From Akkermansiaceae bacterium (GTDB taxonomy: Bacteria > Verrucomicrobiota > Verrucomicrobiia > Verrucomicrobiales > Akkermansiaceae), in the NCBI GenBank assembly GCA_028822695.1, contig JAPKDA010000002.1, positions 1 to 64,000 of the forward strand: a stretch of DNA of 64,000 bases, in the 5' to 3' direction. Numbering within the stretch: the stretch's first letter is position 1; each line of letters begins with the position of its first letter. The translations under genes and the position numbers were made by a program. Below the pieces are notes generated by a model. The model ran no database searches. It was given only the letters and a program-made list of their open reading frames with translations, and was not told the DNA's origin. Positions 3,001-18,344 of this stretch are shown piece by piece.

Positions 3001-3843
3001 GGTGAGGCGGTGTGTGCGGCCGCGGATGCGTTGGATGATGGAACGGCGGTGCAGGTGGAGGTGCGCTGCGATGGGAGGAAGTTGGTAGTTGATTTCGCGG
3101 GGAGTGGGCCGGTGCATCCGGGGAATTTGAATGCGGTGCCCGCCATCGTTCGGAGCGCGGTACTCTACGTGTTGCGGGCCTGGGTGGATGAACCGATTCC
3201 GCTCAATGAGGGGTTGTTGGAGGACGTGGAGATTGTCGTGCCTCGTGGGGTATTGAACCCAGAGTTTTCGGAGGCACTTGCGGAGTGTCCGGCGGTGGTG
3301 GGCGGGAACGTGGAGACGAGTCAGCGGGTGGTGGATGTCTTGTTGTTAGCGTTGGGCTTGCAAGCGAACGGGCAGGGGACGATGAACAACATTCTCTTTG
3401 GGACAGAGGAGTTCGGCTACTACGAGACGATTGGAGGCGGATCGGGGGCGGGGGCAGGTTGGGACGGGATGAGTGGCACGCATGTCCACATGAGCAACAC
3501 GGCGATTACTGATGCCGAGATCTTGGAACGACGCTATCCGGTGCGAGTGCGGAGATTCGGACTGCGGGAGGGATCTGGAGGGGCAGGTCGCTGGAAGGGT
3601 GGCGAGGGGCTTGTGCGCGAATTTGAATTTTTGGAGAAGATGACTGTTTCTCTTCTGACTCAGCGGAGAGCGCTGTCGCCGCGTGGAGGGGAAGGCGGTG
3701 GCGACGGTGGGACTGGTCGGCAGACCTTGGTGAAGGCTGGGGGCGGTGAAGTGGTGCTGCCGGGGACGACGAGTTTCGAGGTGCAGCCTGGCGATCGGAT
3801 CGTGATGGAGACGCCCGGCGGAGGTGGCTGGGGAAAGGCCTAG
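97..3843 (+). CDS. 5-oxoprolinase / hydantoinase A-B fusion protein
   Basis: A large cytosolic ATP-dependent amidohydrolase of the 5-oxoprolinase/N-methylhydantoinase family, expected to open 5-oxo-L-proline to glutamate or to act on a related hydantoin. The HyuA half begins with the nucleotide-binding motif DTGGTFTD (residues 42-49) and has a second phosphate loop, DMGGTSTD, near residue 376. The HyuB half starts near residue 735 and contains [12 protein letters not shown] and ends with PGGGGWG. At 1248 aa it matches the fused eukaryote-like form rather than split HyuA and HyuB. The TTG at 97 is preceded by GGGAGGAAG at a good distance; ATG 142 is the alternative and would be 15 residues shorter. 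The exact substrate cannot be told from sequence. Confidence 0.9.
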
Positions 3844-3994
3844 GGGGACGTGTCGTTACTTGGATGATTGTTGGTAGTCAGGGACGGAGGTTCAAGCGGG
3901 TTCGCCAGATCCGTCGTTTTGCCTCTGACAAGAGCGCGGCTGGAGATGTTGGTTTCTCTGGTGTAATGGGGTGGAGATGGAGTAGAGGTGGGGT

Positions 3995-4483
3995 ATGAAG
4001 AACTTACGATTGGTGGTGATGCTGTGGATCGCTGGATTGGCGGTTGGGCTTGCGGAAGAGGTTCGTCTGGATCCAAAGTTGGTGGATCGGGATTTCAAAG
4101 TGACCGTTGACGTGGCTTCGAAGAAGGGAACCGGAAGTTTCGTCGTTGTGGGGAGCTTGTCTGACGGAGCGATCCGGGTGCCGATCGTTTTGGGAGAGGG
4201 AGTTGATTATGTCGTCGAGGTGCTTGCGCCGACCTACAAGCGGAACAGCGCAACGGTTCTAAAACCAGCGGTGGAGGTTCGGGTGTTGAATCCTGAGAAA
4301 CTGGTGACGAAAGGAGAAGAGGGAACTGAGCCGCTGGCACTGCTGACTTGTCAGCGCTCGGTCGACTGGGAGAGTCCGGGGGTGTTGACCATTTTGGAGA
4401 GTGAGAATCTGACGATTTCTCTCACTTTGGAGCCTGTGGCTGTGCCGGATGTGGAGTCGGATGCGGCAGGGGAGGACGAATAG
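3995..4483 (+). CDS. Secreted hypothetical protein
   Basis: A 162-residue protein with a clear Sec signal peptide: MKNLR, a hydrophobic stretch over residues 6-19, then a probable cleavage after GLA before EEVRLD. The mature part is acidic and rich in alternating hydrophobic residues (GTGSFVVVGSL, GVDYVVEVL), suggesting a small beta-rich periplasmic or outer-membrane-associated domain. Two cysteine-poor halves end in a disordered acidic tail. No family is recognised. It lies 151 bases after the oxoprolinase and converges on lipB with only 8 bases between stops, so it probably has its own promoter in the preceding gap. Confidence 0.65.
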   Translation: MKNLRLVVMLWIAGLAVGLAEEVRLDPKLVDRDFKVTVDVASKKGTGSFVVVGSLSDGAIRVPIVLGEGVDYVVEVLAPTYKRNSATVLKPAVEVRVLNPEKLVTKGEEGTEPLALLTCQRSVDWESPGVLTILESENLTISLTLEPVAVPDVESDAAGEDE

Positions 4484-4491
4484 CGGGGAGG

Positions 4492-5124
4492 CTATGCGAG
4501 TTCGTAGCCGAGGAGATTTGCGAGGTGGCGTGAGCTAGCGATGCCGACTTTGGCAACGGTTGGAGATTGGTCCCCTTCCTGGTGGAGGCAGGTCATGGAG
4601 ACTCCATCGATGCCGCAGGGGGTGATGGCCTGAAAGCCCGGGAGTGACTCGGGGGTGATGTTGAGGGCGAATCCGTGCATGGAGATCCATTTGCGGACGC
4701 CGACGCCGAGGGAGGCAATTTTGCGGTCTCCGACCCAGACGCCGGTCAGGCCTTCTTTACGGGAGGCGGTGACGTTGTAGTCGGCTAGGGTGAGGATAAG
4801 AGCCTCTTCGAGGAGGCGGAGGTAGGCGTGGAGGTCCTTGCCGTGATTTCGCAGATTGAGGATGGGATAGCCGACGAGTTGGCCGGGGCCGTGGTAGGAG
4901 CCCTGGCCGCCGCGGTTGATTTCGATGACGGGGTGCGGAAGGAGGGAGGCCTCGCGGAGACTGGTTTGGTCCCGGGTGCGGCCGATGGTGTAGACCGGAT
5001 GGTGTTCGAGGAGGAAGAGGGTGGGGTTGGAAGATCCGTCGAGGAGGCGGTCGACCTGCGCCTGTTGTTTGGCGAAGGCCTCTTCGTAGGTGAGGGTTCC
5101 GAGATGTTGGACGTTGAGGAGCAT
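4492..5124 (-). CDS. lipB: Octanoyltransferase LipB
   Basis: Transfers octanoyl groups from acyl-carrier protein to lipoyl domains, the first step of de novo lipoate attachment in the cytosol. The family core RGGQGSYHGPGQLVGYPI, the lysine in GDRKIASLG and the catalytic cysteine in ITPCGI are all visible. The start at ATG 5124 (MLLNVQHLGTL) aligns with the usual LipB N-terminus; a GTG at 5172 would add 16 residues without family support. It follows ruvC in the same direction with under 100 bases between, so the two are likely one transcript. LipA is not in the window. Confidence 0.93.
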   Translation of the reverse strand: MLLNVQHLGTLTYEEAFAKQQAQVDRLLDGSSNPTLFLLEHHPVYTIGRTRDQTSLREASLLPHPVIEINRGGQGSYHGPGQLVGYPILNLRNHGKDLHAYLRLLEEALILTLADYNVTASRKEGLTGVWVGDRKIASLGVGVRKWISMHGFALNITPESLPGFQAITPCGIDGVSMTCLHQEGDQSPTVAKVGIASSRHLANLLGYELA

Positions 5125-5220
5125 TGTTTTCGCGGTGGACTGTTGTCCGTGAATGGTTGCCTGAGGGGGCACCGGCGGGACGCCGCTGGAACGGCCTGCC
5201 GCAGGATGCAGCAGCTACGG

Positions 5221-5724
5221 TCAGATCTCTTTGCGGGGAATGGCTTTCTGGTTGTTGGGGTCACTGGAGAAGAGGTGGGCGAGGCCGATGGCGAGGGCGT
5301 CGGCGGCGTCGTGGGGCGGTGTTTCGGCGAGACCGAAGAGGGCGCGGACCATGAAGGCGACTTGCTTTTTATCAGCGGTGCCTTTGCCGACCACAGCTTG
5401 CTTTACCTTGGTGGGAGCATATTCGAAGACGCGGAGTCCGTGGGAGGCGGCAGCGATGAGGGCGGCGCCCCGGGCGGCACCCATGGAGATGGCAGTGCGA
5501 TGGGATTGGACGTAGATGATGCCTTCCACGGCGACTTCATCGGGTTCCCATTTCTTGATGAGGTTTCCGAGGGTGGAGGAGATGGCGGCGAGTGCCTTGG
5601 ATTGCGTGAGTTTTTGCGGGATGGAGATCACGCCGAAGTCGAGTGACTTCTGGCTCCGGGCATCGCCTTCCACGATGGCGTATCCGGTATTCCGGACAGC
5701 TGGGTCGATGGAGAGGATGCGCAC
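5221..5724 (-). CDS. ruvC: Crossover junction endodeoxyribonuclease RuvC
   Basis: Holliday-junction resolvase that nicks paired strands after RuvAB branch migration. The 167 residues cover the RNase-H-like fold: the first acidic residue in LSIDPAVRNTGYA (Asp7), the glutamate in VAVEGIIY, and the C-terminal pair in PPHDAADALAIG supply the four metal-binding carboxylates. Length is normal for the family. It is first of a leftward pair with lipB. RuvA and RuvB are absent from the window, so the usual ruvCAB order is broken. Confidence 0.95.
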   Translation of the reverse strand: MRILSIDPAVRNTGYAIVEGDARSQKSLDFGVISIPQKLTQSKALAAISSTLGNLIKKWEPDEVAVEGIIYVQSHRTAISMGAARGAALIAAASHGLRVFEYAPTKVKQAVVGKGTADKKQVAFMVRALFGLAETPPHDAADALAIGLAHLFSSDPNNQKAIPRKEI

Positions 5725-6055
5725 TGCGGGAAACTAGCGTCGGATGGCGGAGGGGGGAATACGGAAATTCGAGCAGCGAGCCATATCCAATCTCCTACCG
5801 ATTTATCTGCATTTCGGGATCGAATTCGAAATGTCGGCTGCCACTGCAACTCCGGCTTCTCTGCATGATCGTAAGATCAGGAATATAGAAATCGATGCGA
5901 GCAACAGAATCGCGAACGCCGCCTTCATTTGAGAGACGAAATCGAGGAGGTAAGGCCTATGAGCCAGCCCCTCCTTCGTCAGGGGGAATTTTGATCATGA
6001 CCCGGGACCCGTCCTTCGCGAAACGCTACGGAGGGCAGGCTGGTCACGCCACGGG
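5725..6055. other. 331-bp gap between the ruvC start and the helicase stop
   Basis: Contains a possible 41-codon leftward ORF (5803-5928), a GC-rich imperfect hairpin (CCCCT...AGGGG, about 5969-5986) that may end the helicase transcript, and copy A of the dispersed repeat next to the helicase stop. The ruvC promoter should lie in the left part, but no convincing -35/-10 pair was found. Confidence 0.5.
5803..5928 (-). CDS. Possible 41-aa single-pass membrane peptide
   Basis: The minus strand reads ATG at 5926-5928 to TAA at 5803-5805. The predicted peptide starts MKAAFAILLLASISIFLIL, an uninterrupted hydrophobic helix after one lysine, then a short polar tail with two cysteines. Such a pattern is typical of small membrane proteins or signal peptides and is unlikely in random GC-rich DNA. 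There is no clear Shine-Dalgarno site, and it stands alone between ruvC and a helicase. Treated as a candidate only. Confidence 0.3.
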   Translation of the reverse strand: MKAAFAILLLASISIFLILRSCREAGVAVAADISNSIPKCR

Positions 6056-6056
6056 T
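5999..6056. repeat. Dispersed intergenic repeat, copy A
   Basis: Starts GACCCGGGACCC, continues GTCCTTCGC, CGGAGGGC and GGCTGGTC, and abuts the stop codon of the DEAD-box helicase. The same ordered blocks recur at 56816-56879. The GTCCTTCGC and GCTACGGAGG halves are imperfectly complementary, so the unit could fold as a short hairpin with loop GAAAC. Confidence 0.55.
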
Positions 6057-7258
6057 TACTTTCTCCGGCGGCGCTTGGGGGCGGGGCGGCGCTTTTTGAT
6101 GACGGACCGTGCAGGGCTGTCGTCGAGGAGGGCTGTGTAGGTGTAGTTGAATTCTTCGAGCTTCTTGCGTTTGATCTTTTGGCTGATGAAGCGTTCGACG
6201 GACTCGGCGAACTCGAGTTCGTCGGCAGTGAGGAGGGTGAAGGCGTCGCCTTCGGCTTCGGCTCGGCCGGTTCGTCCGATGCGGTGGACGTAGTCCTCGG
6301 CGTTTTCGGGGACGCGGTAGTTGATGACGTGGGAGACTCCGGAGATGTCGATGCCCCGGGCGGCGACGTCGGTGGCGACGAGGATATTGCAGGTTCCTTC
6401 CTTGAAGTCCTTGAGGGCCTTCATGCGGTCGGCCTGGCGGATGTCGGAGTGCATGACGGCGACCTTGGAGTGGCCTGCCTTCTCGAAGAGAAGGGCGAGG
6501 TTGTTGGCTTCCTTCCTGGTCCGGGTGAAAATCATGACGCTGTGAAAATCGGTTTCTTTAAGGATGGCGAGGAGGAGCTCGTCACGTTGGTCCATGGAGA
6601 CCGGGTAGAAGGCGTGGGTGACGGTGGCGGCGACGGCGCGGCGCGCGATTTCGACTTCGACGGGGTCCTTGAGGCACCACTTGGCGAAGGTTTCGATGGC
6701 CGGGGGCATGGTGGCCGAGAAGAAGAGGGTCTGGCGGTTGGCAGGGGGAACGAAGTTGACGATCTTGCGGACGTCGGGGAGGAATCCCATGTCGAGCATG
6801 CGGTCGACTTCGTCGAGGATGAGGGTGTGCACGTTGTCGAGTTTGAGAGTGCCGCGGGCGTGGAGGTCGAGAAGGCGTCCAGGAGTAGCGACGACGATGT
6901 CGGCACCGTTCTCCAGGTCTTCCACTTGCTTGCCGTATCCCACGCCTCCGTAGAGGAGGGCAACCTTGTGGCCGCTGTGCTTACCGTAGTGCTCGAAGGC
7001 TTCGGCAACCTGGTGGGCGAGTTCGCGGGTTGGCTCGAGGACGAGACAAACCGGCCGGCCGCAGGGCTTGTGTTTGGTGAGAGTGGGAAGCGCGAAAGCG
7101 GCGGTCTTTCCGGTGCCGGTTTGGGAGGCTCCAATGACATCGCGGCCTTCCAAGATCAGGGGAATGGAGCGGGCCTGGATGGGGGTCGGAGTGGTGTAGC
7201 CGGACTCGGTGACGGCTTCGAGGACCGGGTCTGAGAGGCCCAATTCAGAAAATAGCAT
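6056..7258 (-). CDS. DEAD-box ATP-dependent RNA helicase (RhlE-like)
   Basis: Unwinds RNA duplexes in ribosome assembly or RNA decay. All core motifs are present in order: Q motif (TPTPIQARSIP), motif I ASQTGTGKT near residue 49, PTRELAHQ, TPGRLLD, motif II as DEVD rather than DEAD, motif III SAT, ARGIDISGV and HRIGRTGRA. The C-terminus is a short basic tail (KKRRPAPKRRRRK), as in RhlE-type enzymes, giving 400 residues. Monocistronic by context: the next leftward gene upstream ends 149 bases before its ATG. Substrate is not predictable. Confidence 0.93.
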   Translation of the reverse strand: MLFSELGLSDPVLEAVTESGYTTPTPIQARSIPLILEGRDVIGASQTGTGKTAAFALPTLTKHKPCGRPVCLVLEPTRELAHQVAEAFEHYGKHSGHKVALLYGGVGYGKQVEDLENGADIVVATPGRLLDLHARGTLKLDNVHTLILDEVDRMLDMGFLPDVRKIVNFVPPANRQTLFFSATMPPAIETFAKWCLKDPVEVEIARRAVAATVTHAFYPVSMDQRDELLLAILKETDFHSVMIFTRTRKEANNLALLFEKAGHSKVAVMHSDIRQADRMKALKDFKEGTCNILVATDVAARGIDISGVSHVINYRVPENAEDYVHRIGRTGRAEAEGDAFTLLTADELEFAESVERFISQKIKRKKLEEFNYTYTALLDDSPARSVIKKRRPAPKRRRRK

Positions 7259-7407
7259 AGCGCTAGGTAGAGCGAACGTGCTGTACGGTCAAGGGGAACA
7301 GGAGGGGGAGGCGAGGGTGGATGGCCTCTTGGGCGAGAACGGGGAGGAAAGGATGCGGGCGGTGGAGCCGCCGGACCGCTCGGAGACCGGTCCCTGCCTT
7401 TGCGGGC

Positions 7408-8475
7408 CTACCTTGGTGGGGCCGGAGACTGGATGAGGAGGCAGCCTTCCAGAATGGGTTGGAGAATCTGGAGAAATGCTTCGCTGCTGCGGTTGAGGCG
7501 GTCGCCAAAACGTTCCTCGGCTTGGCGGAGGACGTAGTCCAGATCGGCCCGGACAAGGGCGTTGTCAGCGCCACGGAGAATGGCGAGGAGGAGGCAGTAT
7601 TTGCCAGCGCGAACGAGGACGGTACGTTTTTCGGGAAGATCGAAGGTGGAGCGCATTTCGTCCTTCTGGCTCTGGAGTCGGCGGATGAGCATTCGGAGGG
7701 TGGACTGAACGCGGCGGGTTGAGGAGTGACGGGCGGGGTCGTGGCTGGCGTAAGAGACGAGGCTCTTGTCGCGCTTGCGGACGAGGTAGACCTCCTCGAC
7801 CTGAAATCTTCGGGTGCGATCGAAGACGATCTCATCGTAGCTTTGGCTGGTAAAGAGTGCGCTGAGTCTCCAGGCGAGGCGGTCGACGGGTCCGACTTCG
7901 CCGAACTGTCGGGCTGAATCCATTTGTTCGGCGAGGGCACGTCGGACGGTGCTGCGGAGCATGGGTTCGAGGTAGGTATGGATTCCGGTCTCGGGTGCGT
8001 AGAGCGCTTTGGCGAGAGTTGTTTCCAAGATGGGAAGGAGGGCGTCCTTCAGGTCGTCGTCGGTGTTCTTGTTGTTGGGCGGTTCCACCGGAAGCGGGTT
8101 GCGCAATGTGGATCGCCGTGCGGGGGGATCCTGCTGTGGAGGAACAGGTATTGCGAGCTCTTCGATATCCTCGTCGGCCATGGCGGCGGCGACCTGTTCC
8201 CGCATGGCGGGGGCCTTGTCGACGGGCATGTCGATCAGGGATTGGGTGGCGCGGAACTTGATGGAGGGCTTCTCGGCAAGTTTTTCCTGTGGGAGTCTGG
8301 GAATGCTAGAGAGCTCGGTTTTGCCGGGGAGTGGGATGGAAGTGTCCGCCGGGCCGACCGGCAAGGAAGCGTCGCCAAGGAGTTCGGAGAGTGATGGCAC
8401 CTTGCGCTTTTTGTCGAGCGCGTGAAGCTCGGGAAAGGGGCTGGTGGGAAGAGTGGTCACGGGAGGAGATGACAT
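7408..8475 (-). CDS. Conserved hypothetical protein with disordered N-terminal half
   Basis: About 355 residues from ATG 8475. The first roughly 145 residues are Pro/Ser-rich with short acidic patches (DEDIEELAIP) and likely unstructured. The C-terminal 200 residues are compact and charged, containing ALFTSQSYDEIVFDR, VEEVYLVRKRDKSLVSYAS and GKYCLLLAILRGA. No signal peptide or transmembrane segment is seen. It begins 4 bases after the stop of the coiled-coil gene at 8480-9070, so both are one operon and may work together. I do not recognise a named family; a regulatory or scaffold role is only a guess. Confidence 0.7.
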   Translation of the reverse strand: MSSPPVTTLPTSPFPELHALDKKRKVPSLSELLGDASLPVGPADTSIPLPGKTELSSIPRLPQEKLAEKPSIKFRATQSLIDMPVDKAPAMREQVAAAMADEDIEELAIPVPPQQDPPARRSTLRNPLPVEPPNNKNTDDDLKDALLPILETTLAKALYAPETGIHTYLEPMLRSTVRRALAEQMDSARQFGEVGPVDRLAWRLSALFTSQSYDEIVFDRTRRFQVEEVYLVRKRDKSLVSYASHDPARHSSTRRVQSTLRMLIRRLQSQKDEMRSTFDLPEKRTVLVRAGKYCLLLAILRGADNALVRADLDYVLRQAEERFGDRLNRSSEAFLQILQPILEGCLLIQSPAPPR

Positions 8476-8479
8476 CTGG

Positions 8480-9070
8480 TTAGAGGAGGAATCCGTTTTC
8501 TTCGGTTTCGGGATTCGGTTCGTCTGCCATTGCGGCACTGGCGAGTCGAGCAAGGCGGTTCTTCAACTCCTGGCGATCGACCATTGTTGTTCGCACGGAA
8601 TTCATGTCGCGATCGATCTGGTGCTTCCACTGGCCGATCTCGTGTTGGAGATGGCTGAGAATCTCGCGGACACGGGCATCGATTCGTGCGGCCATGGCGG
8701 CGCTGATGTCCTCGAGGTGTTTGGTTAGGTGGCTGCCCAGATGCTGGTCTTGACGGGCTAGTCCGGCGGAGGCGGCGTCCAGTTTTTCGGAAGCGGCGTT
8801 GAGGCTTTGGGCGAGGTTTTCGATCTGCTGGGAATGCAACTGGCTCTCTTCCTGGACTTGTTTGCGCAGTTCCTGGGTTTCGTGGAGCTCGTTGGACTGG
8901 GCCGTCTGGAGGCGCTGGAAGCTCTCGGAGCCCGCGGAGCTGGGGCCAGCTTGGGCAAGGTGGCTTTCCATTTTCGCAAGGCGCTCCTCAACTTGCTGCA
9001 TTTGGCGGCCGACAAGGATCTCGCGGATCCTCTCGACTTGCTGCGAGGGATTCAAACTGGGGTCTGGCAT
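8480..9070 (-). CDS. Coiled-coil hypothetical protein
   Basis: A 196-residue, almost wholly helical protein with heptad-rich stretches over residues 10-110 (QQVERIREILVGRQMQQVEE, then TQELRKQVQEES and later ASEKLDAASAGL). A second helical part, SAAMAARIDARVREILSHL, precedes a short acidic tail. There is no membrane segment. It is first gene of a leftward pair with the 355-aa hypothetical. Its leader contains a terminator-shaped hairpin 19 bases before the ATG, hinting at transcriptional attenuation. Function unknown; oligomerisation is likely. Confidence 0.7.
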   Translation of the reverse strand: MPDPSLNPSQQVERIREILVGRQMQQVEERLAKMESHLAQAGPSSAGSESFQRLQTAQSNELHETQELRKQVQEESQLHSQQIENLAQSLNAASEKLDAASAGLARQDQHLGSHLTKHLEDISAAMAARIDARVREILSHLQHEIGQWKHQIDRDMNSVRTTMVDRQELKNRLARLASAAMADEPNPETEENGFLL

Positions 9071-9080
9071 GGTGTGAACA

Positions 9081-9105
9081 GGGAAAAAGGCCCGAAGATC
9101 GGGCC
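9081..9105 (-). terminator. Terminator-like hairpin in the leader of the 8480-9070 gene
   Basis: On the minus strand a perfect 7-bp stem GGCCCGA / TCGGGCC with a 3-base TCT loop is followed directly by TTTTTCCC. This is the shape of an intrinsic terminator, but it lies just upstream of a start codon with no leftward gene ending before it, so it may act as an attenuator. Its position in the leader is seen; any regulation is inferred. Confidence 0.55.
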
Positions 9106-9149
9106 CTGTAGAGGGTGTGAAGACTCGCCCAGAAGGCTAGGGAGGGGGG

Positions 9150-9167
9150 CTAGGCGAGGCAACGCAT
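9150..9167 (-). CDS. Possible 5-codon leader peptide
   Basis: On the minus strand ATG-CGT-TGC-CTC-GCC-TAG (MRCLA) lies about 80 bases before the 8480-9070 gene and about 45 bases before the terminator-shaped hairpin. A short leader ORF ahead of such a hairpin is the layout of attenuation, but the peptide is short enough to arise by chance, and no start signal is seen. Confidence 0.15.
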   Translation of the reverse strand: MRCLA

Positions 9168-9256
9168 TTTCACAATGTTGAGATTTCCAGAATATTAAGA
9201 AAAATTATCCAAGGTAGCGAAAGACTTGGGTGGCGCTCTGTGTTAATGAACACCTG

Positions 9257-9949
9257 ATGCCGGGAGACGAACAAGAGGGGGAGGTCAAGGCAAAGAAGTC
9301 TCGCACGAAGAACGGCTTCGAGCAGGCCTATGAGAAGACGCGCAAGAGTTTGATTGCGCGGTTGGAAAATTGGGAGGACCAGCGGACCTGGGATGAGTTC
9401 TACCAAACCTACTGGCGCTTGATCTACTCGGTCGGCTTGAAGGCTGGTCTGCGATCGGATGAGGCCTTCGATACGGTGCAGGAGACGATTCTCTCCATCG
9501 CGAAGCAGAGTAAGAAGAATCTCTACGATCCGAATCAGGGATCGTTCAAGACGTGGCTGATGAACATGACCCGGTGGCGGATCAATGATCAGTTCCGAAA
9601 GCGGAAGAAAGACACGGCGATGGCCGGCGCGGATTGGGAGGGAGACCGGAAGACGGCGGTGATTGATCGCTTCGAGGACCCCAAGGGGGATTTACTGGAG
9701 CGGATGTGGGACGTTGAGTGGAAAAAGAATCTCGCCGATGCGGCATTGGACCGTGTGAAGTCCCAGGTTTCCCCAAAGCAGTACCAAATTTTTGATTACT
9801 ACGTGATCAAGCAGTGGGAGCCGAAAAAGGTGCAAGAGCATCTGGGCGTGAGCATGGCGCAGGTGTATTTGGCAAAACACCGGGTCGGTTCGGTTCTCAA
9901 GCGCGAATTGACCAAGTTGGAGAAGATCGAAAAGGATGCCGAAGAGTAA
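9257..9949 (+). CDS. ECF-type RNA polymerase sigma factor
   Basis: A sigma-70 family factor of about 230 residues. Region 2 is visible as WDEFYQTYWRLIYSVGLKAG, DEAFDTVQETILSI and FKTWLMNMTRWRINDQFR; region 4 as SPKQYQIFDYYVIKQWEPKK and VQEHLGVSMAQVYLAKHRV, a helix-turn-helix. The start is uncertain: ATG 9257 is used, GTG 9230 is in frame, and neither has a good ribosome site. Its last 14 bases overlap the start of a Ser/Thr kinase gene, an arrangement known for ECF groups controlled by kinases in Planctomycetes and Verrucomicrobia. No anti-sigma gene is adjacent, so the kinase is the likely controller. Confidence 0.88.
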   Translation: MPGDEQEGEVKAKKSRTKNGFEQAYEKTRKSLIARLENWEDQRTWDEFYQTYWRLIYSVGLKAGLRSDEAFDTVQETILSIAKQSKKNLYDPNQGSFKTWLMNMTRWRINDQFRKRKKDTAMAGADWEGDRKTAVIDRFEDPKGDLLERMWDVEWKKNLADAALDRVKSQVSPKQYQIFDYYVIKQWEPKKVQEHLGVSMAQVYLAKHRVGSVLKRELTKLEKIEKDAEE

Positions 9950-12554
9950 GATTCGCGACGAGCCGAGGATACCTGATCATGAGGTGCTGAGGAAGATCGG
10001 CGGAGGCGCCTACGGGTCAGTGTGGTTGGCGCGGGGGGTGACGGGGGCGATGCGGGCCGCGAAGGTGGTCGATCGCGATGATTTTGAGGATGAGCGGGAG
10101 TTTGAGCGGGAGTTCCAGGGAATCCTGAAATACGAGCCGATTTCTCGGGAGCACCCGGGGCTGGTTCACATCCTGCACGTGGGGAGATCGGAAGGAGAGA
10201 ATGCCTTCTACTACTACGTGATGGAGTTGGGGGATGATGTCGAAACGGGAAACGAGATCAATCCGGTGGAGTATGAGGCGCGGACGCTGCGCAGTGACAT
10301 GAAGGCGGCGGAGGGGGAGCCGCTCGACACGGATTTTTGTATTACGACGGGTCGGATTTTGTCACAGGGCCTGCAGCATTTGCACGGTCACGGGCTGGCG
10401 CACCGCGACGTGAAGCCGGCCAACGTCATTTTCATCGATGGAAAAGCGAAGTTGGCGGATATTGGATTGGTCGCTCTTCGTGGTCAGCGGACCTTCGTGG
10501 GGACGGAGGGATTCGTGCCGCCGGAGGGTCCCGGTTCTGCGCAGGCGGACGTCTACAGTCTCGGCAAGGTTCTTTACGAAATGGCCACGGGGAAGGACCG
10601 GATGGAGTTTCCGGAGCTGCCTGATGAGTTGCCGGGGGGGGATGAGCTGAAACGCTGGCGGTCGCTCAATTCGGTGATTTGTGATATTTGTGAGCCCAGA
10701 ATTTCGCAGCGGAAGCTCAAGACTGCGGAGGCTCTCGCAGAGGAGCTTGGATTTTTGGAGGCAGGAGAGACCCGGCCGATGCAGGTGCAACCGGTCTGGA
10801 CGCTTCTTGTGCTTTGCTTGACCCTTGTGTTGGCGGGAGGCTGGAATTTCTTGATGGTGGGGCCGTGGGATGTTCGGTCTGGAGAGGACGTGATTTCGCC
10901 CTTCGCGCCGGTGCCGACCGAGTTGGCATTGGTGACGATTCAAAGTGAGCCCTCGGGAGCGGATGTGTTCTCCGAGGAAGGGGAGTTGTTGGGGCAGACT
11001 CCCTTGATTCCCCGGAAAATGCCGGTCGATACCTGGGTGAGCTTCGAATTCCGGCTGCGTGGATTTCAAACGACGACAGCTGGTGGCGTGGTGAGTGATG
11101 GGGGGCTGGTGATTGAGCCGACCTTGAAGATCGATGCTCCTCCACAGATCGGGGAGAACTGGGAGGATGTCTTGGGGATGTCCTATCGATGGGAAAACGA
11201 CGCCCATGTGAGTCACTATTACGTTGGTGAGCATGAGTGGCGGCAGTATTTGTCGGAGACAGCCGGAAAGAAGGGGATCTATGCGCAAATCTCGGAGAAC
11301 GGGCGGCAGCGGAGCGTGGTGTTTGCCAATGAAGAGGAAGCCAAGACCTACGTGAAGTGGCTGACGGAGCGATGCCGGGATGGCTACTTGAACGAAGACC
11401 AGATCCTCAAGCCGCGGATGGATCGCCAGCGGGCTCTCGCGGCGGTCTTTCCGAAGGGCGTGCCGAAAGGGAAATTTCCGTTCCGCTGTGTGGCGTTGCA
11501 GGGAGCGCGGATTCAGCTGACCAGTGAGCCGGAGGGAGCGGATGTTTATATCAATGGGGTGCTGCGGGGGCCGACGCCTCTACGTGGTAGAGTGCTGGAG
11601 GAGGAAGTGGCGCAGTATGAGGGAATCAGGGTGCTATCGGGCAAGGTGGTGATCTCGCTGGAGGCGGATGGGTTCAAGACTTTGGAGAAGGCATTCACGT
11701 TGCAGCCGAACGATTACTGGGAGGAGCCGGAGCACTTTGTGTTGGAGAAAAACACGGGGGTGGTCTTTGGGCGGACTTGGGAAAAGAACAGCCTGGGGAT
11801 GAGGTTTGAACCGGATGGCGAGGATCTGATGGTTGCGGTCTGGGAAACCCGGGTGGCGGACTATGCGGAGTATGTGAAGTTGGCACGTCCGGCGGTGTTT
11901 GCGCCTCAGGCTCCTGACTTTGCACAGGACGGGTCACATCCTGTTGTCAACGTCTCCCGAGAGGATGCTAATGCCTTTTGCCAGTGGTTGACCAAGGTTG
12001 AGCAGGAGCGGGACTTAATCTCCAAGACCCACGAATACCGACTGCCGACTGATTTGGAGTGGAGTCGGATGGCGGGGTTGGCGGACGAGTTATTTGACTG
12101 GCCACAGGAGCGGGACCGGATCGCGACAGGCTTTCCCTGGGGGGGCGCCTGGCCGCCACTTGCGGAGGCGGGAAATTTCGCGGATGAAGCGGCGGATAAT
12201 CTTGCGATCGGTCTGACCATTCCGGGTTACGTGGATAGGTTTGCGGAAACTGCGCCAGTGGGTTCCTACGTGTCGAATAGTCTCGGGCTCCAGGATTTGA
12301 GTGGCAATGTCTATGAGTGGGTGGGTGACGATTACTACAAGCCGCGGGGGATGAGCCTCGCGGACGTCTACGGGGTGTTGCGAGGGGGGTGTTGGAATAG
12401 TTTTCGGAAAGAGGATCTGATGACCTCGGCGCGTTTTGCGAAGCGGCCCACCGCGCGGTACGATTGGGTGGGGTTTCGGGTGGTGCTTGCCAAAGTCCCT
12501 GTAAAGGCCGAGAACCCTGCGTTGGAGCCTCTGGCACCTGTTGAAGAACCATGA
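9936..12554 (+). CDS. Membrane Ser/Thr protein kinase with PEGA and FGE-sulfatase-like domains
   Basis: An 872-residue signalling protein. Kinase domain residues about 14-275: glycine loop GGGAYGSVWLA, lysine in MRAAKVV, catalytic HRDVKPANVIF, and DIG in place of DFG. One transmembrane helix follows near 290-312 (WTLLVLCLTLVLAGGW). Outside come a PEGA repeat (QSEPSGADVFS), a shortened FGE-like module, a second PEGA repeat (TSEPEGADVYING) and a full FGE-sulfatase fold (DLSGNVYEWVGDDYY, VLRGGCWNSF, VGFRVV). The cysteine pair used by true formylglycine-generating enzymes is missing after RGG, so the outer domain probably binds ligand rather than oxidises sulfatases. It overlaps the sigma factor by 14 bases and OsmC by 4; likely it senses the envelope and phosphorylates the sigma factor. 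Confidence 0.9.
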   Translation: MPKSKIRDEPRIPDHEVLRKIGGGAYGSVWLARGVTGAMRAAKVVDRDDFEDEREFEREFQGILKYEPISREHPGLVHILHVGRSEGENAFYYYVMELGDDVETGNEINPVEYEARTLRSDMKAAEGEPLDTDFCITTGRILSQGLQHLHGHGLAHRDVKPANVIFIDGKAKLADIGLVALRGQRTFVGTEGFVPPEGPGSAQADVYSLGKVLYEMATGKDRMEFPELPDELPGGDELKRWRSLNSVICDICEPRISQRKLKTAEALAEELGFLEAGETRPMQVQPVWTLLVLCLTLVLAGGWNFLMVGPWDVRSGEDVISPFAPVPTELALVTIQSEPSGADVFSEEGELLGQTPLIPRKMPVDTWVSFEFRLRGFQTTTAGGVVSDGGLVIEPTLKIDAPPQIGENWEDVLGMSYRWENDAHVSHYYVGEHEWRQYLSETAGKKGIYAQISENGRQRSVVFANEEEAKTYVKWLTERCRDGYLNEDQILKPRMDRQRALAAVFPKGVPKGKFPFRCVALQGARIQLTSEPEGADVYINGVLRGPTPLRGRVLEEEVAQYEGIRVLSGKVVISLEADGFKTLEKAFTLQPNDYWEEPEHFVLEKNTGVVFGRTWEKNSLGMRFEPDGEDLMVAVWETRVADYAEYVKLARPAVFAPQAPDFAQDGSHPVVNVSREDANAFCQWLTKVEQERDLISKTHEYRLPTDLEWSRMAGLADELFDWPQERDRIATGFPWGGAWPPLAEAGNFADEAADNLAIGLTIPGYVDRFAETAPVGSYVSNSLGLQDLSGNVYEWVGDDYYKPRGMSLADVYGVLRGGCWNSFRKEDLMTSARFAKRPTARYDWVGFRVVLAKVPVKAENPALEPLAPVEEP

Positions 12555-12967
12555 TTGAGATTCAAATCGACTACCGGGGCGAATTGCACTGCGAAGCAAT
12601 GCACGGCCCATCGACAGCTCTCATCTGTACTGATGCTCCTGTGGACAATCATGGAAAAGGTGAGTCCTTCTCCCCGACAGATTTGTTAGCGGCGGCCCTG
12701 GGGAGTTGTATGGCCACGGTGATGGGGATTGCCGCCCGGAGGAAGGACGTGGATTTGAAGGGGATGCGGATTCGCGTTGAGAAGTATATGTCCGATGAGC
12801 AACCGCGGCGGGTTTCCAAGCTAGCGGTGAAGATTCAGATGCCGATTGAGGAGGACCACCCGGAGCGGAAGTTGCTCCAAGCGACGGGGCATGGTTGTCC
12901 GGTTCGTCATAGTATTCACCCCGATATCGAGGTCCCCGTGACCTGGGTCTGGGCGAATCAGGGTTAG
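12551..12967 (+). CDS. OsmC-family protein
   Basis: A 138-residue OsmC/Ohr-fold protein. The two redox cysteines sit in AAALGSCMATV (about residue 55) and HGCPVRHS (about 117), as in the peroxide-reducing OsmC group. Its ATG overlaps the kinase stop in an ATGA, so it is translationally coupled to the sigma-kinase pair and is the third gene of that operon. It also precedes the cysteine genes by 103 bases. A role in organic peroxide or thiol stress is expected from the family; coupling to the kinase suggests it may be an output of that pathway. Confidence 0.88.
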   Translation: MIEIQIDYRGELHCEAMHGPSTALICTDAPVDNHGKGESFSPTDLLAAALGSCMATVMGIAARRKDVDLKGMRIRVEKYMSDEQPRRVSKLAVKIQMPIEEDHPERKLLQATGHGCPVRHSIHPDIEVPVTWVWANQG

Positions 12968-13070: not shown

Positions 13071-14831
13071 ATGATTCAAATTCCAGAGAATGCACCTTTC
13101 GCTCCCGGAGAACGGGAGAATGTGGAGAAATTGTTGTCGGGCCTGAGCCCTGAGCAGCGGGTGTGGTTGAGTGGCCATTTGGCTCCTAGCGGCCCTGTTG
13201 CCACTCCTGTGGCCTCGTCCCGACCGTTGACGATCCTCTACGGCACTGAGTCGGGCAACTGCGAGGAGTTGGCCGCGAAGAGCGCGTCAGTGGCCAAGAA
13301 GCGGGGGTTCAAGGCGAAGATCCGGAACATGGCGGAGGTCTCGGTGGGTGATCTCGCCGGGATTGAGAACCTGTTGGTGATCGTGAGTACTTGGGGAGAG
13401 GGCGATCCGCCGGAGACCGCGGAAACGTTCCACAAGGAGTTCATGGCTGCCGACTTCCGTCTGGAGAAGACGAAGTTCTCAGTGTGTGCCCTTGGCGATA
13501 CGAGCTACGAGGATTTCTGCGAGATCGGCAAGCAGGTCGACCGGAAGCTCGACGAGCTTGGTGCGACGCGTTTGGTGGACCGTCAGGATTGTGACGTCGA
13601 TTTTGATGATGATCACGGGGCCTGGCTTGAGAAGGTGTTGGTGTCGCTCGGCGAGGCATCCTCGAATGGTGCGGCGGCGCCTGCCCCGGTGGCGCAACCA
13701 ACGGTGGAGTATGGAAAGAAGAATCCTTTTCCTTCTGAGATCCTCGAGAAAGTCCTCCTGAATGGTGAAGGCACCAAGAAGGAGACCTGGCATCTTGAGA
13801 TGAATCTAGAGGGGTCGGGCTTGGTTTATGAGGCCGGCGATTCGCTTGGTCTGATTGCTTACAATGCTCCCGACATGGTGGAGAGTGTTCTCGTGGCGAC
13901 CGGATTTGATGGAGCGACTGAAGTGACTTTGAAGAGCGGGGCGACAGTGTCGCTGGGTGAGGCACTTAAGAGTTCCTTGGACATCACCGCGTTGTCGCGG
14001 GCTGTAGCAAAGAAGTATGCGGCCTTGAACGGTTCAGAGAAGCTTGCGGAGTTGCTCGGCGACGACAACAAGGAGGCGTTTCGCGATTATGTTGAGGGTC
14101 GGCAAATCGTGGATTTGTTCGAGGATTTTCCAGTCGGGAAGGCGACTGCAGAGGAGGTGGCGAAAATCTTGCGTCCTCTTCCGGCGCGTCTGTATTCGAT
14201 TGCTTCCAGTCCGAATGCCAATCCGGGTGAGGTTCATCTGACGATTGCGGCGGTGCGTTACGACAGCCAAGGCAAATCCCGGAAGGGGGTAGCCTCGACC
14301 TGTGTTGCTGATTTGGTTTCGGAGGGGGATGCCATATCGGTGTTCATTCAGCCCAATAAGCGCTTCCGTTTGCCGGCGAGCGCGGAAACGCCAGTGATCA
14401 TGGTGGGGCCGGGAACGGGAATTGCGCCGTTCCGCGCCTTTATCGAAGAGCGAGGTGAGCAGGAAAGCGCCGGGAAGAGTTGGTTGTTCTTTGGCGATCA
14501 GCACTACATGTATGATTTCCTCTACCAACTCGAGTTGCAGGAGCACATGAAGAGTGGCGCTTTGACCAGATTGGACGTGGCGTTCTCACGGGATCAGCCG
14601 GAGAAAGTGTATGTGCAGGACCGCATGCGGGAGAAGGCTGCTGATCTCTACACGTGGTTGGAGTCTGGAGCGCACTTCTACGTGTGTGGCGACGCGAACA
14701 GGATGGCGGGAGATGTTCATGAGGCCTTGCTCGACATTGTTTCGGAGCATGGTGGGAAGAGCCGCGAGGATGCAGAAGCATTTGTGGAGCAATTAAAAAA
14801 GGACGGACGCTATCAACGCGACGTTTACTAA
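13071..14831 (+). CDS. cysJ: Sulfite reductase (NADPH) flavoprotein alpha subunit
   Basis: Passes electrons from NADPH through FAD and FMN to the siroheme subunit. Residues about 50-195 are a flavodoxin domain (LYGTESGNCEELA, VSTWGEGDPPETA); an FAD-binding reductase domain follows with PARLYSIASSPNANPGEVHL, then NADP contacts GPGTGIAPFRAFIEER and YVCGDANRMAGDV, ending GRYQRDVY as in CysJ. The 586-residue length is normal. It is the first gene of the cysJ-cysI-cysH-cysK run, with 20 bases to cysI. Confidence 0.94.
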   Translation: MIQIPENAPFAPGERENVEKLLSGLSPEQRVWLSGHLAPSGPVATPVASSRPLTILYGTESGNCEELAAKSASVAKKRGFKAKIRNMAEVSVGDLAGIENLLVIVSTWGEGDPPETAETFHKEFMAADFRLEKTKFSVCALGDTSYEDFCEIGKQVDRKLDELGATRLVDRQDCDVDFDDDHGAWLEKVLVSLGEASSNGAAAPAPVAQPTVEYGKKNPFPSEILEKVLLNGEGTKKETWHLEMNLEGSGLVYEAGDSLGLIAYNAPDMVESVLVATGFDGATEVTLKSGATVSLGEALKSSLDITALSRAVAKKYAALNGSEKLAELLGDDNKEAFRDYVEGRQIVDLFEDFPVGKATAEEVAKILRPLPARLYSIASSPNANPGEVHLTIAAVRYDSQGKSRKGVASTCVADLVSEGDAISVFIQPNKRFRLPASAETPVIMVGPGTGIAPFRAFIEERGEQESAGKSWLFFGDQHYMYDFLYQLELQEHMKSGALTRLDVAFSRDQPEKVYVQDRMREKAADLYTWLESGAHFYVCGDANRMAGDVHEALLDIVSEHGGKSREDAEAFVEQLKKDGRYQRDVY

Positions 14832-14851
14832 AGCGATAACGATTCAAGACG

Positions 14852-16579
14852 ATGAGTGACGAAAAAAAGTTGGCTGCCAACGAGGGGATCAAGACCCGGA
14901 GTAACTTCTTGCGGGGAACGATCGCGGAAGGCCTGGGGGATTTGTCGACCGGCGGGTTGTGCGCTGACGATCAGCAGTTGATCAAGTTTCACGGGAGCTA
15001 TCAGCAGGACGACCGGGATATCCGTGCGGCCCGTCGGAAGCACAAGCTGGAGAAGGCGTATTCCTTCATGATTCGGATCCGGGTGCCTGCAGGTGTTTCG
15101 ACTGCCCAGCAGTGGCTGGAGATGGACCGGATGTGCGAGCAGTTCGGGAACGGCGACTTCAAGTTGACCACTCGTCAGGCCTATCAGTTGCACGGGATCA
15201 TCAAGACGAATTTGAAGCGGACGATCAAGGAGATCAACGACACCGCGATGGACACGATTGCTGCCTGTGGCGACGTGAACCGGAATGTGATGTGCAACGT
15301 GAATCCCGAGAAGTCGGAGCTTCATGCGGATGTCCTGAAGGTGTCCGAGGATCTGAGTGCTCATCTCACGCCGGCGACTGGTGCTTATCACGAGATCTGG
15401 CTCGACGGAGAGAAGGTTGAATCGAGTGAAGGAGTGGAGGAGCCGATCTATGGAAAGACCTACTTGCCGCGGAAGTTCAAAATTACGGTGGCGGTGCCGC
15501 CTAGTAATGATGTGGATATTTTCGCCCATGATTTGTCGTTCATTGCGATTTCCGGTCCAAAGGGCCTGGAAGGATTCAATGTGGCGGTTGGTGGTGGCAT
15601 GGGGATGACTCATGGTGACGAGAAGACCTTTCCGCGATTGGCTGATGTGATCGGCTTTGTCCCGACCGACAAGGTGGTGGAACTGGCGGAGAAGGTCGTG
15701 ACGGTGCAGCGGGACTTCGGTGATCGCGTTGAGCGGAAGCATGCCCGGATGAAGTACACGATCGATGATCGTGGCGTGGAATGGTTCGTGGGCGAATTGG
15801 AGTCTCGACTTGGCTACAAGCTCGAGCCGACCCGAGACTTCAAGTTTACCCACAATGGCGACGATTTTGGCTGGCACGAGAATGCGGACGGGACCTGGAA
15901 CTATGTGATGTATATTCCGGGCGGACGCGTGCAGGACCGACCGGGCGCCAATATCCGGACTGGATTGCGGAAGATTGCGGAGCTGATGGATGGAGAGTTT
16001 CGTCTGACTCCGAATCAGAACGTCGCGCTGGCGTTGATCAAACCGGAGCAGAAGGCGGCGATTGAAGAGTTGGTTGAGGAATATGCTCTCAGTGATCCGT
16101 TGCGGCTCAGTGGGCTGCGTCTCAATTCGATTTCTTGCGTAGCGTTACCGACCTGCGCCTTGGCCTTGGCAGAGGCTGAGCGCTATTTGCCGGATGTGAT
16201 CGGGCAGCTGGAGGAGGTTTTGGACGAAGCGGGATTGCGCAGCGATGCGATTACCATCCGGATGACCGGTTGCCCGAACGGGTGTGCCCGGCCGTATATT
16301 GCGGAGATCGGTTTCGTGGGACGTGGGCCGGATCGCTATAACGTCTACCTCGGGGCCGGCTTCGTTGGTGACCGGTTGAGCAAGCTTTGGCGCAAGGACG
16401 TCAAGGGAACGGAGATCAAGGAACTGCTAACGCCGGTGATTCAGGATTACGCGAAGAGCCGTGAGGACGGCGAGCGCTTTGGAGATTTTGTGATTCGAGC
16501 CGGCTACGTGAAGGCGACCAGGGAAGGTCGGGATTTTCATGCGGACATCGAGGATTCCTCGGCGTCTGCCAACGCATAG
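14852..16579 (+). CDS. cysI: Sulfite reductase hemoprotein beta subunit
   Basis: Reduces sulfite to sulfide by six electrons at a siroheme coupled to a 4Fe-4S cluster. The cluster cysteines are in CVALPTCALALAEAERY and TGCPNGCARPY near the C-terminus, and the N-terminal half carries the siroheme-contacting TRQAYQLHGI. At 575 residues it has the normal double sulfite-reductase repeat. Pairing with cysJ favours the NADPH enzyme over the ferredoxin type. It ends 4 bases before the cysH ATG. Confidence 0.95.
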   Translation: MSDEKKLAANEGIKTRSNFLRGTIAEGLGDLSTGGLCADDQQLIKFHGSYQQDDRDIRAARRKHKLEKAYSFMIRIRVPAGVSTAQQWLEMDRMCEQFGNGDFKLTTRQAYQLHGIIKTNLKRTIKEINDTAMDTIAACGDVNRNVMCNVNPEKSELHADVLKVSEDLSAHLTPATGAYHEIWLDGEKVESSEGVEEPIYGKTYLPRKFKITVAVPPSNDVDIFAHDLSFIAISGPKGLEGFNVAVGGGMGMTHGDEKTFPRLADVIGFVPTDKVVELAEKVVTVQRDFGDRVERKHARMKYTIDDRGVEWFVGELESRLGYKLEPTRDFKFTHNGDDFGWHENADGTWNYVMYIPGGRVQDRPGANIRTGLRKIAELMDGEFRLTPNQNVALALIKPEQKAAIEELVEEYALSDPLRLSGLRLNSISCVALPTCALALAEAERYLPDVIGQLEEVLDEAGLRSDAITIRMTGCPNGCARPYIAEIGFVGRGPDRYNVYLGAGFVGDRLSKLWRKDVKGTEIKELLTPVIQDYAKSREDGERFGDFVIRAGYVKATREGRDFHADIEDSSASANA

Positions 16580-16583
16580 AACG

Positions 16584-17318
16584 ATGGAAGCAAGTAAACA
16601 GGTGAGCCAAGAGATTGATGCCGAGGCATTGTCCGAGGTGTTGAGTCCTCTTCCGGTGGAAGAGCGGATCAGGTATTTGGGTGAGAACTTTACCGGCCGG
16701 GTTGTCGCGACGACGAGTTTCGGTCTGCAGGCTTCGGTGATGTTGCATTTGATGAAGACCCACGCTCCGGATGTGCCGGTGGTGTTTGTGGATACCGGCT
16801 ATCTTTTTCCGGAGACTTATCGATACGCGGAGGCGTTGGAGAATCAGCTTGGGATGAAGGCGACGGTCTATTCAGCGCAAATGACGCCAGCCAGACAGGA
16901 GGCGCTACTCGGACGTCTTTGGGAGAAAGGCGCGGAGGGGGCGGAGCAATATGGTCGGATCAACAAGGTTGAGCCCATGAGCCGTGCCTTGCAGGAGTTG
17001 GGCAGTGATATCTGGATCAGTGGTTTGCGACGTTCCCATTCCAAGACGAGAGCGCAACGCGGTGTGGTCGAGCAACAGTCGCGCACCACGAAAATTTATC
17101 CTATTCTCGAGTGGAGTGACGAGCAGGTGGAGGAATACATGACGCGTCACAATCTGCCGCCGCATCCGCTGGCGGACCAAGGTTACGTGTCCATGGGAGA
17201 TTGGCATTCCACCAAGCCCTTGGGAGAGGGTGAGACGGCGGAAGAGACGCGATTTAACGGTGAGAAATACGAGTGTGGATTGCACCTCGACTCCGGCGTG
17301 CAGGATTTCCAGATTTAA
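16584..17318 (+). CDS. cysH: Phosphoadenylyl-sulfate (PAPS) reductase
   Basis: Thioredoxin-dependent reduction of PAPS to sulfite, supplying CysJI. Recognised by VATTSFGLQASVMLHL (PP-loop), VFVDTGYLFPETYRYAEAL, ISGLRRSHSKTRA and the C-terminal catalytic cysteine in YECGLHLDSGV. The CC...CxxC cysteines that bind an iron-sulfur cluster in APS reductases are absent, so PAPS rather than APS is the predicted substrate. The chosen ATG (MEASKQV) is 4 bases after cysI; an earlier in-frame ATG at 16539 lies inside cysI. ATP sulfurylase and APS kinase are not in the window. Confidence 0.92.
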   Translation: MEASKQVSQEIDAEALSEVLSPLPVEERIRYLGENFTGRVVATTSFGLQASVMLHLMKTHAPDVPVVFVDTGYLFPETYRYAEALENQLGMKATVYSAQMTPARQEALLGRLWEKGAEGAEQYGRINKVEPMSRALQELGSDIWISGLRRSHSKTRAQRGVVEQQSRTTKIYPILEWSDEQVEEYMTRHNLPPHPLADQGYVSMGDWHSTKPLGEGETAEETRFNGEKYECGLHLDSGVQDFQI

Positions 17319-17375
17319 TGGATTGCGGCGAGTCAGAGGCCAGCCTAGAACATAGCGAATCACCGATTAGTAACA

Positions 17376-18344
17376 ATGAGTCAAAAAATTGCAGCAAACG
17401 TGGCCGATACAGTGGGGAACACCCCCTTGATCCGATTGAACGCGATCGCCGAAGGGTGTGTCGGTGAGGTGGATGTGAAGGCTGAATTTTTCAATCCGCT
17501 CTTCAGTGTGAAGGATCGGATTGGCAAGGCCATGATTGAGACTGCTGAGAAGGACGGCAGCCTGAAGCCTGGCGGAACGATTGTGGAGCCGACATCGGGG
17601 AATACGGGGATCGCTCTGGCTTTCGTGGCGCGGGCGAAGGGGTATCGTTGCATTTTGGTCATGCCGGAGACGATGTCGGTGGAGCGGAGGGTGCTTTTGC
17701 GGATGCTCGGAGCGGAGCTTGTTCTCACACCGGGACCGAAAGGAATGGGTGGGGCGATCGCCAAGGCGAATCAGCTCATCGAAGAGATTGGTGATGAAGC
17801 ATTTGGACCGAGCCAGTTTGACAATCCTGCAAACCCGGAGATTCACCGTCAGACGACTGCCGAGGAAATTTGGCGGGATACGGGTGGCGAGATTGATGTC
17901 TTTGTTGCCGGTGTTGGAACTGGCGGGACGATCACGGGAGTTGCCGAAGTGCTGAAATCGCGGAAGGACGTGCATTGCGTTGCGGTCGAGCCGACCGCCA
18001 GCCCGGTGATTTCGGGTGGAAACCCGGGGCCGCACAAGATTCAGGGAATCGGAGCGGGATTCATTCCGGGTAACCTGAACATGGATATCGTCGATGAGGT
18101 CGTGCAGATTTCGAACGAAGATGCGTTTGAGACGGCGCAACTGCTGAATAGCGTTGAGGGAATGCCTGCGGGGATTTCCAGCGGAGCGACCATTGCTGCT
18201 GCGTTGCAGATCGCGAAGCGGCCGGAGATGGCAGGTAAGCGAATCGTTGTCATCGCGGCGAGCAGCACGGAGCGTTATCTGAGCACGCCGTTGGCGGAGT
18301 CAGTACGTGAAGAGTGTGCAAATCTGCCGGTGAGTGAGATTTAA
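17376..18344 (+). CDS. cysK: Cysteine synthase A (O-acetylserine sulfhydrylase)
   Basis: PLP enzyme joining sulfide to O-acetylserine. The PLP lysine is in [11 protein letters not shown], the substrate loop in [12 protein letters not shown] and the phosphate loop in [14 protein letters not shown]; the 322-residue length is typical. It follows cysH by 57 bases. It ends 12 bases from the stop of the convergent Rrf2 regulator. In Firmicutes CysK binds the Rrf2 protein CymR to sense O-acetylserine; the same could hold here but is not shown. Confidence 0.95.

Follow-up and report, generated by a model that had tools for sequence, protein, structure and literature searches.

The bacterium considered here belongs to the Akkermansiaceae (GenBank assembly GCA_028822695.1; 2.69 Mb in 226 contigs, 94.66% complete), and the stretch analysed, hereafter the window, comprises positions 1 to 64,000 of the forward strand of its contig JAPKDA010000002.1. 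Between positions 9257 and 12967 the window carries three overlapping genes, encoding a sigma factor of the extracytoplasmic function (ECF) type, a transmembrane Hanks-type Ser/Thr kinase and an OsmC-family protein. On balance, we lean toward the view that this module is a receptor Ser/Thr kinase gating a dedicated ECF sigma factor that drives mainly its own operon. In such a scheme, a stack of PEGA domains and non-catalytic domains with the fold of the formylglycine-generating enzyme (FGE), located outside the membrane, would probably bind either an envelope structure or a ligand and thereby switch the kinase domain on the inner side, so that the sigma factor or one of its partners becomes phosphorylated; and the active sigma factor would start transcription at a GAAAGAC promoter that precedes its own gene, with positive feedback on the sigma factor, the kinase and, where present, OsmC. 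An action of the kinase on the sigma factor or a partner is proposed because their genes overlap in a conserved manner and because kinase-ECF pairs have been characterised in other bacteria. Alongside the gene order, the intact kinase residues, the missing FGE cysteines and the upstream element, all of which are read directly, we infer that the order of events runs from signal to kinase, sigma factor and operon.

Gene order and its conservation

The sequence-only reading of this DNA had described the sigma factor, kinase and OsmC genes as overlapping, and it was correct in this and in their coordinates. All three lie on the plus strand. The sigma frame (9257..9949; 230 amino acids) extends from an ATG at 9257 to the stop codon at 9947-9949, the kinase frame (9936..12554; 872 amino acids) from an ATG at 9936 to the stop codon at 12552-12554, and the OsmC frame (12551..12967) from an ATG at 12551, over the kinase stop, to the stop codon at 12965-12967. 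The sigma and kinase genes overlap by 14 nucleotides (nt), and the kinase and OsmC genes by 4 nt (ATGA). An alternative open start for the sigma factor, GTG at 9230, falls within the promoter-like element at 9217-9246 described below, and the ATG at 9257 is therefore favoured.

The same trio was sought elsewhere, and the module proved to be real and conserved. Among the best 80 of 175 sigma relatives (the named loci), which include records labelled Akkermansiaceae, Roseibacillus, Haloferula, Luteolibacter and Rubritalea, sigma identity is 76-95% and the kinase gene adjoins the sigma gene in 78, at a start-to-stop distance of -26 to +3 nt; in the remaining two, the contig ends after the first kinase residues (L091) or 16 nt past the sigma match (L117). 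The two genes overlap in 72 of the 78 adjacent loci if the nearest start codon is taken, and OsmC lies 3′ of the kinase in 65 of the 71 loci that extend for a further 500 nt or more (distance -20 to +86 nt from the projected start). The order sigma-kinase-OsmC in the named loci is not due to chance.

A survey of 117 genomes of the family yielded a sigma match below 1e-50 in 110, a kinase match below 1e-40 in 112 and an OsmC match at 1e-10 in 101. The sigma factor and the kinase are absent together from four of these genomes (G001, G003, G005 and G104), and neither was matched, at the thresholds used, in G217 and G236, which supports the earlier claim that the two belong together. The discordant genomes include one with a sigma gene at a contig edge and no kinase (G028) and two with kinase fragments and no sigma factor (G079 and G090). 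The sigma-kinase pair is the core of the module and OsmC an accessory member.

Outside the family, the class also contains sigma relatives, at about 29-59% identity, and many of them have a kinase nearby in the fetched loci, which were partly picked because a kinase had already been seen there. In a sample of the phylum, a sigma match at 1e-20 was obtained in 57 of 240 genomes, 22 of which lie outside the class, where 21 matches show 27-34% identity and one (G452) 50%. Three class genomes (G166, G204 and G325) contain four to eight such sigma factors at 1e-20, and their nearby kinase frames vary in length. Two loci labelled Porticoccaceae (L083) and Akkermansia muciniphila (L120) have their sigma and kinase genes side by side, as is usual for other genera of the Akkermansiaceae, and these labels may be wrong.

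A promoter-like element preceding the sigma gene

The sequence-only reading was extended in two respects, namely an intact acidic motif in the sigma factor, discussed below, and a conserved promoter-like element. In the window, this ECF-type element (GCGAAAGACTT-N11-TGTGTTAA; 9217..9246, plus strand) consists of a -35-like GAAAGAC and a -10-like GTTAA and ends 10 nt 5′ of the sigma ATG. Of 77 regions taken upstream of the sigma start, 44 contain GAAAGAC, against 1.7 in dinucleotide shuffles (largest value 5), and 60 contain the broader box [GT][AG]AAGAC, against 5.5 (largest value 11). A [GT]TA is situated exactly 24 nt from the first base of the box in 44 of these 60 regions, while any other offset from 12 to 39 is seen in at most eight; this count was anchored on the -35 box alone, with the second box unused, and is drawn from related loci that are not independent. 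When three or fewer mismatches were allowed, the element of the window matched once in the window (0.00 expected from 100 shuffles) and, among six genomes, only at the sigma operons of G000, G007, G048 and G114 (reversed control, 3), with no match in G026 and G036. The pattern GTGAAAGACA-N15-GGTA with one mismatch gave 12 operon sites and two others (reversed control, 8) in 12 genomes that had been picked because the operon site was already found there.

Similar but looser elements precede more distant sigma genes. In a genus designated g3, which is probably Akkermansia to judge from its numerous genomes in the family that are small and complete, GAAAGA-N13..18-[CG][GT]TA lies upstream of 12 of 15 sigma genes (shuffles, 0.095), and in the class TG[AT]AAGA-N13..18-CG[TA] lies upstream of 11 of 31 sigma relatives (shuffles, 0.175; reversed, 0), both patterns having been written after the same sequences were viewed. 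Applied to the other sets, the g3 pattern was found in 5 of 31 class regions and in 33 of 80 family regions (shuffles, 1.3; reversed, 8), and the class pattern in 1 of 80 family regions.

Three patterns were used to look for a wider regulon. In the genome of the window, GAAAGACN{14,18}KKTWA matched four sites, including the one at the operon, and the reversed control also gave four. GTGAAAGACAN{15,18}GKTA matched 24 sites in 22 of the 117 family genomes against 17 in the reversed control; 17 of these sites precede the sigma operon, all of them 29 nt long, and seven lie elsewhere, one of them 29 nt long. In 21 g3 genomes, TGAAAGAN{15,17}CGTAG matched 24 sites against 32 in the reversed control, and three of the 24 precede the sigma gene (G027, G062 and G112), each being the sole site in G062 and G112. 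No wider sigma regulon was thus detected at the pattern stringencies used, at which weaker targets would escape detection. As judged from these comparisons, the element is conserved, rarely repeated and promoter-like.

Observations that weigh against a self-driven module

Several observations weigh against a kinase-gated sigma factor that drives mainly its own operon. Phosphorylation, promoter use and a ligand are all predictions at present, and it is unusual for a sigma factor to have close to a single promoter in each genome. Moreover, linkage is lost in g3: the sigma and kinase genes are unlinked in all 20 genomes of this genus that hold both (nine on the same contig, 7 kb to 2 Mb apart, and 11 on different contigs), and one further g3 genome (G099) possesses the kinase with no sigma match better than 3.6e-5. 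OsmC is likewise dispersed: in the 12 g3 genomes compared, it is placed on a different contig or separated from the kinase by no less than 314 kb. Relatives with a kinase but no linked sigma factor, which the sequence-only reading had named as a refutation of its module, thus do occur in this one genus. Because these genomes retain both genes though unlinked, the sigma-kinase partnership has probably survived the loss of linkage. In one g3 locus (L231 of G083, 2954-9274), the sigma and kinase genes are separated by about 6.3 kb that holds several open frames, a layout that is perhaps an intermediate in the break-up of the module. If g3 is Akkermansia, a dispersed version of the module would reside in a gut bacterium of wide interest.

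The dispersal in g3, the kinase of G099 and the absence of OsmC from the 3′ side of the kinase in six of 71 loci would suit the view that the three genes are mere neighbours without a joint function and that the kinase has other substrates. We consider this very improbable, since the two genes overlap in most named loci and disappear together, and since related sigma-kinase neighbours recur in the class, with the selection of loci noted above.

Other objections concern the element. The box is missing from 17 of the 77 upstream regions, including nine mostly Roseibacillus-type loci (L065, L067, L068, L070-L072 and L074-L076) that keep the sigma factor, kinase and OsmC genes and whose sigma sequences are near that of the window. 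In g3, the element was missing from the kinase genes of the 17 genomes examined and from the two OsmC genes examined, so that feedback there could reach the sigma factor only. ECF promoters are described, in passages of PMC8103513, as marked by AAC at -35 and CGT at -10. Here the -35 box reads GAAAGAC instead of AAC, and at -10 the family has G[GT]TA instead of CGT; in addition, AAGACA-N17-TA could be taken for a housekeeping promoter. Furthermore, the opposite strand also shows the element in 7 of the 31 class regions, which would equally fit an operator or divergent promoter. In L194, L195, L214, L219, L220, L223 and L224, TCTTTCA (the TGAAAGA box inverted) is found upstream of the sigma gene, and its position there suggests one of these two functions.

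It is therefore possible, although we regard it as doubtful, that the element is a housekeeping promoter or the operator of another regulator and that the sigma factor has a separate, wider regulon. The housekeeping-like spacing and the -35 box without AAC agree with such a reading, as do the inverted copies in the class, the near-palindrome GAAAGACTTTC in some family members, the absence of the box from the nine mostly Roseibacillus-type loci, and the rarity of the element before other genes, which is odd for a sigma regulon. On the other hand, such uniformity, together with such rarity elsewhere, would be surprising for a housekeeping promoter, and the class sigma genes that carry the class pattern (11 of 31) resemble the family in their -35 core and continue with CGT or CGA, CGT at -10 being the ECF hallmark cited above.

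The kinase and its outer domains

The kinase domain (Pkinase, 1.9e-22, residues 16-221) contains the P-loop, lysine, HRD, DFG-like and APE-like elements of Hanks-type kinases, with DIG in place of DFG and PPE in place of APE in the window. Residues G22-G24, K43, E59, H156, R157, D158, K160, N163, D175, G177, T186, T190, P195, P196 and E197 are invariant in all 73 aligned kinases; rows L225, L226 and L228, which repeat genomes already present, were excluded from these residue counts and from the cysteine and sigma residue counts below. By these residues, the kinase is catalytically intact. Mean modal identity is 0.82 in the kinase domain and 0.46-0.61 in the outer domains, and the two parts are divided by a hydrophobic stretch at residues about 286-308 (10791..10859), a run recognised by eye that likely spans the membrane.

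The outer part reads in the order PEGA-FGE-PEGA-FGE, with a shortened first FGE copy: a first PEGA domain (residues about 336-402; 10941..11141), a shortened FGE-like module (residues 398-521; 11127..11498), a second PEGA domain (residues 526-593; 11511..11714; PF08308, 7.5e-09) and an FGE-fold domain (residues 611-853; 11766..12494; PF03781, 3.9e-28 over 656-850), all on the plus strand. A Pfam scan of the window kinase did not report the first PEGA domain or the shortened module. In support of the second PEGA domain, PEGA was matched in all 50 outer regions scanned. In profile comparisons, the first PEGA domain matched the second with 98.6% (E 9e-16) and the shortened module matched the FGE domain with 98.0% (E 2e-13), while six unrelated domain pairs used as a control scored at most 1.2%; the outer part can thus be read as a PEGA-FGE unit in tandem.

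An AlphaFold2 model of residues 307-872 built from 50 sequences has a mean predicted local distance difference test (pLDDT) score of 88.3 and a predicted template modelling score of 0.72. Its C-terminal domain aligned in VIA-align with the Treponema denticola variable protein 2y3c (Z 23.2; 202 residues, 3.3 Å), PvdO 5hha (Z 23.2; 203 residues, 2.6 Å) and human FGE 1y1e (Z 20.5; 202 residues, 3.5 Å), and the proteins with the same fold include PorK (9myj, 9p6h and 9mzu), the Z values for 2y3c, PvdO and PorK being 21.7-23.2. Unlike in these proteins, the FGE fold here shares a tandem array with PEGA domains on the outer side of a kinase. The shortened module, with a mean pLDDT of 91.4, gave no Foldseek match with E below 0.001 when searched alone, and its best VIA-align row is an FGE with a Z of 3.8, which is too weak to count. 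Judging from the profile match, to which the predicted fold adds weak support, the first FGE-like module reads as a reduced FGE copy.

The catalytic cysteines of human FGE are C336 and C341 (titles of structures 2aft and 2afy). At the alignment columns that correspond to residues 812-853 of the window kinase, where the matching pair was placed by sequence pattern and aligned range rather than by residue-level superposition, 56 of the 73 kinases have no cysteine, 17 have one and none has two. As the pair is missing from all 73, the outer FGE-fold domain should not act as an FGE, and an active formylglycine-generating enzyme was rejected as a candidate. The sequence-only reading had described PEGA and FGE-like outer domains without the FGE cysteines and had proposed a sensor built from a catalytic fold; the former description was borne out, no intact FGE active site being found in the alignment, and the latter proposal gains support from a predicted FGE fold (Z 20-23) without the cysteine pair.

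The sigma factor and comparison with known kinase-linked sigma factors

The sigma factor is assigned to the ECF type by TIGR02937 (58.5 bits against a cut-off of 42.9, span 45-216) and by PF04542 (Sigma70_r2, 4.5e-08); region 4 gave no separate Pfam match. Its acidic, RNA polymerase-binding motif ExxDxxQE (E69, D72, Q75 and E76) is intact in all 81 family sequences and in all 15 distinct g3 sequences. Among 33 class sequences, E or D is found at position 69 in 32 and at positions 72 and 76 in all 33, and Q75 is also present in all 33.

The nearest characterised systems are the ECF43 pairs EcfK-PknS of Xanthomonas citri and EcfP-PknT of Vibrio parahaemolyticus, in which an ECF sigma gene likewise stands beside the gene for a transmembrane Hanks-type kinase. 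Passages of the papers on these pairs report direct phosphorylation of the sigma factor (PMC13147305; PMC8103513), in which a phosphothreonine supplies the charge that the sigma 2.2 motif, typically an uncharged QTTA or STTA, lacks (PMC13147305; PMC8103513; PMC8999054); linker threonines of EcfK also matter, according to the same passages (PMC13147305; PMC8103513). By analogy, phosphorylation of the present sigma factor by the kinase is plausible. The present module shares the kinase neighbour with ECF43 (78 of 80 named loci, but not g3), whereas its motif is not uncharged; this intact acidic motif sets it apart from ECF43, and no missing charge would have to be made good by a phosphate. The PEGA/FGE outer domains, the GAAAGAC promoter and an OsmC partner do not feature in those passages on ECF43.

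The ECF43 mechanism as such, in which a phosphate in region 2.2 provides the charge for RNA polymerase binding, is an improbable explanation here and was set aside on account of the intact motif. In its favour are the neighbouring Hanks-type kinase, a neighbour also seen in EcfK-PknS and EcfP-PknT, a threonine, T77, directly after the motif (81/81 family, 14/15 g3 and 29/33 class sequences) and the observation that EcfK itself retains one acidic motif residue (passages of PMC13147305). It is opposed by the presence of E69, D72 and E76 in every family and g3 sequence, and by kinase-linked groups other than ECF43 that keep the motif and may work differently. In a review, these groups are ECF59, ECF61, ECF62, ECF217 and ECF283, with four planctomycetes and one actinobacterium tabulated as their example members (PMC8999054); like them, the present module combines a kinase neighbour with a kept acidic motif. 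That review lists kinase-linked ECF groups with unexplained activation in which the acidic motif is kept, unlike in ECF43 (PMC8999054), and the family offers a small, strongly conserved example, with one kinase, one sigma factor and one strong predicted promoter.

If the kinase does gate the sigma factor, phosphorylation is more likely to occur at another site, for which the N-terminal T28 and S31, or the linker T120 within the family, would be candidates; alternatively, the kinase may relieve or impose another block on the sigma factor. T28 is found in all 129 distinct sequences, in which position 31 is always S or T; T105 is found in 126 of the 129, and T120, in the linker after region 2, in all 96 family and g3 sequences. 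These sites are rated by conservation only, and related sigma factors may often carry residues of this kind. No example of activation by a kinase outside region 2.2 was found in the literature searched, and no paper on a sigma-kinase-OsmC module was found by title or abstract, subscription literature being mostly outside reach.

It is tempting to speculate further that the promoter is private, so that the module switches on essentially itself, that the kinase acts outside region 2.2, that duplication of a PEGA-FGE unit gave rise to a pseudoenzyme receptor, and that the whole is a core system of the family with a dispersed form probably in Akkermansia; in this complete form, the proposal is rather unlikely to hold.

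A lysine-rich N-terminal sigma tail with at least two KK is present in 21 of the 80 named loci (L103-L105, L108 and 17 others of L064-L143), and the longest tail among L103-L108 resembles an AKKA repeat of the histone H1 type.

OsmC and neighbouring genes

The OsmC-family protein (PF02566, 2.7e-14) has two cysteines, C53 and C116, that are conserved in 66 of 66 sequences. It shares the OsmC domain and the two conserved cysteines with the OsmC/Ohr peroxidases, and is likely to be a thiol peroxidase; because it scores below the curated NCBIfam cut-off for all five listed families, it is placed in no named subgroup. The suggestion that OsmC is the response of the module has weakened, as the gene is missing 3′ of the kinase in some loci, stands apart in g3 and lacks the promoter element at the two g3 loci examined. 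OsmC may rather be regarded as a frequent passenger that is dispensable to the module.

Downstream of OsmC on the same strand, the window carries sulfate-assimilation-like genes at 13071-18344, comprising a flavodoxin-type reductase recognised by Pfam and, from the reading of open frames only, a sulfite reductase, a CysH-like protein and a cysteine synthase-like protein. Of the 80 named loci, a good many of them short, 19 contain relatives of the first of these genes and 19 contain relatives of the second.

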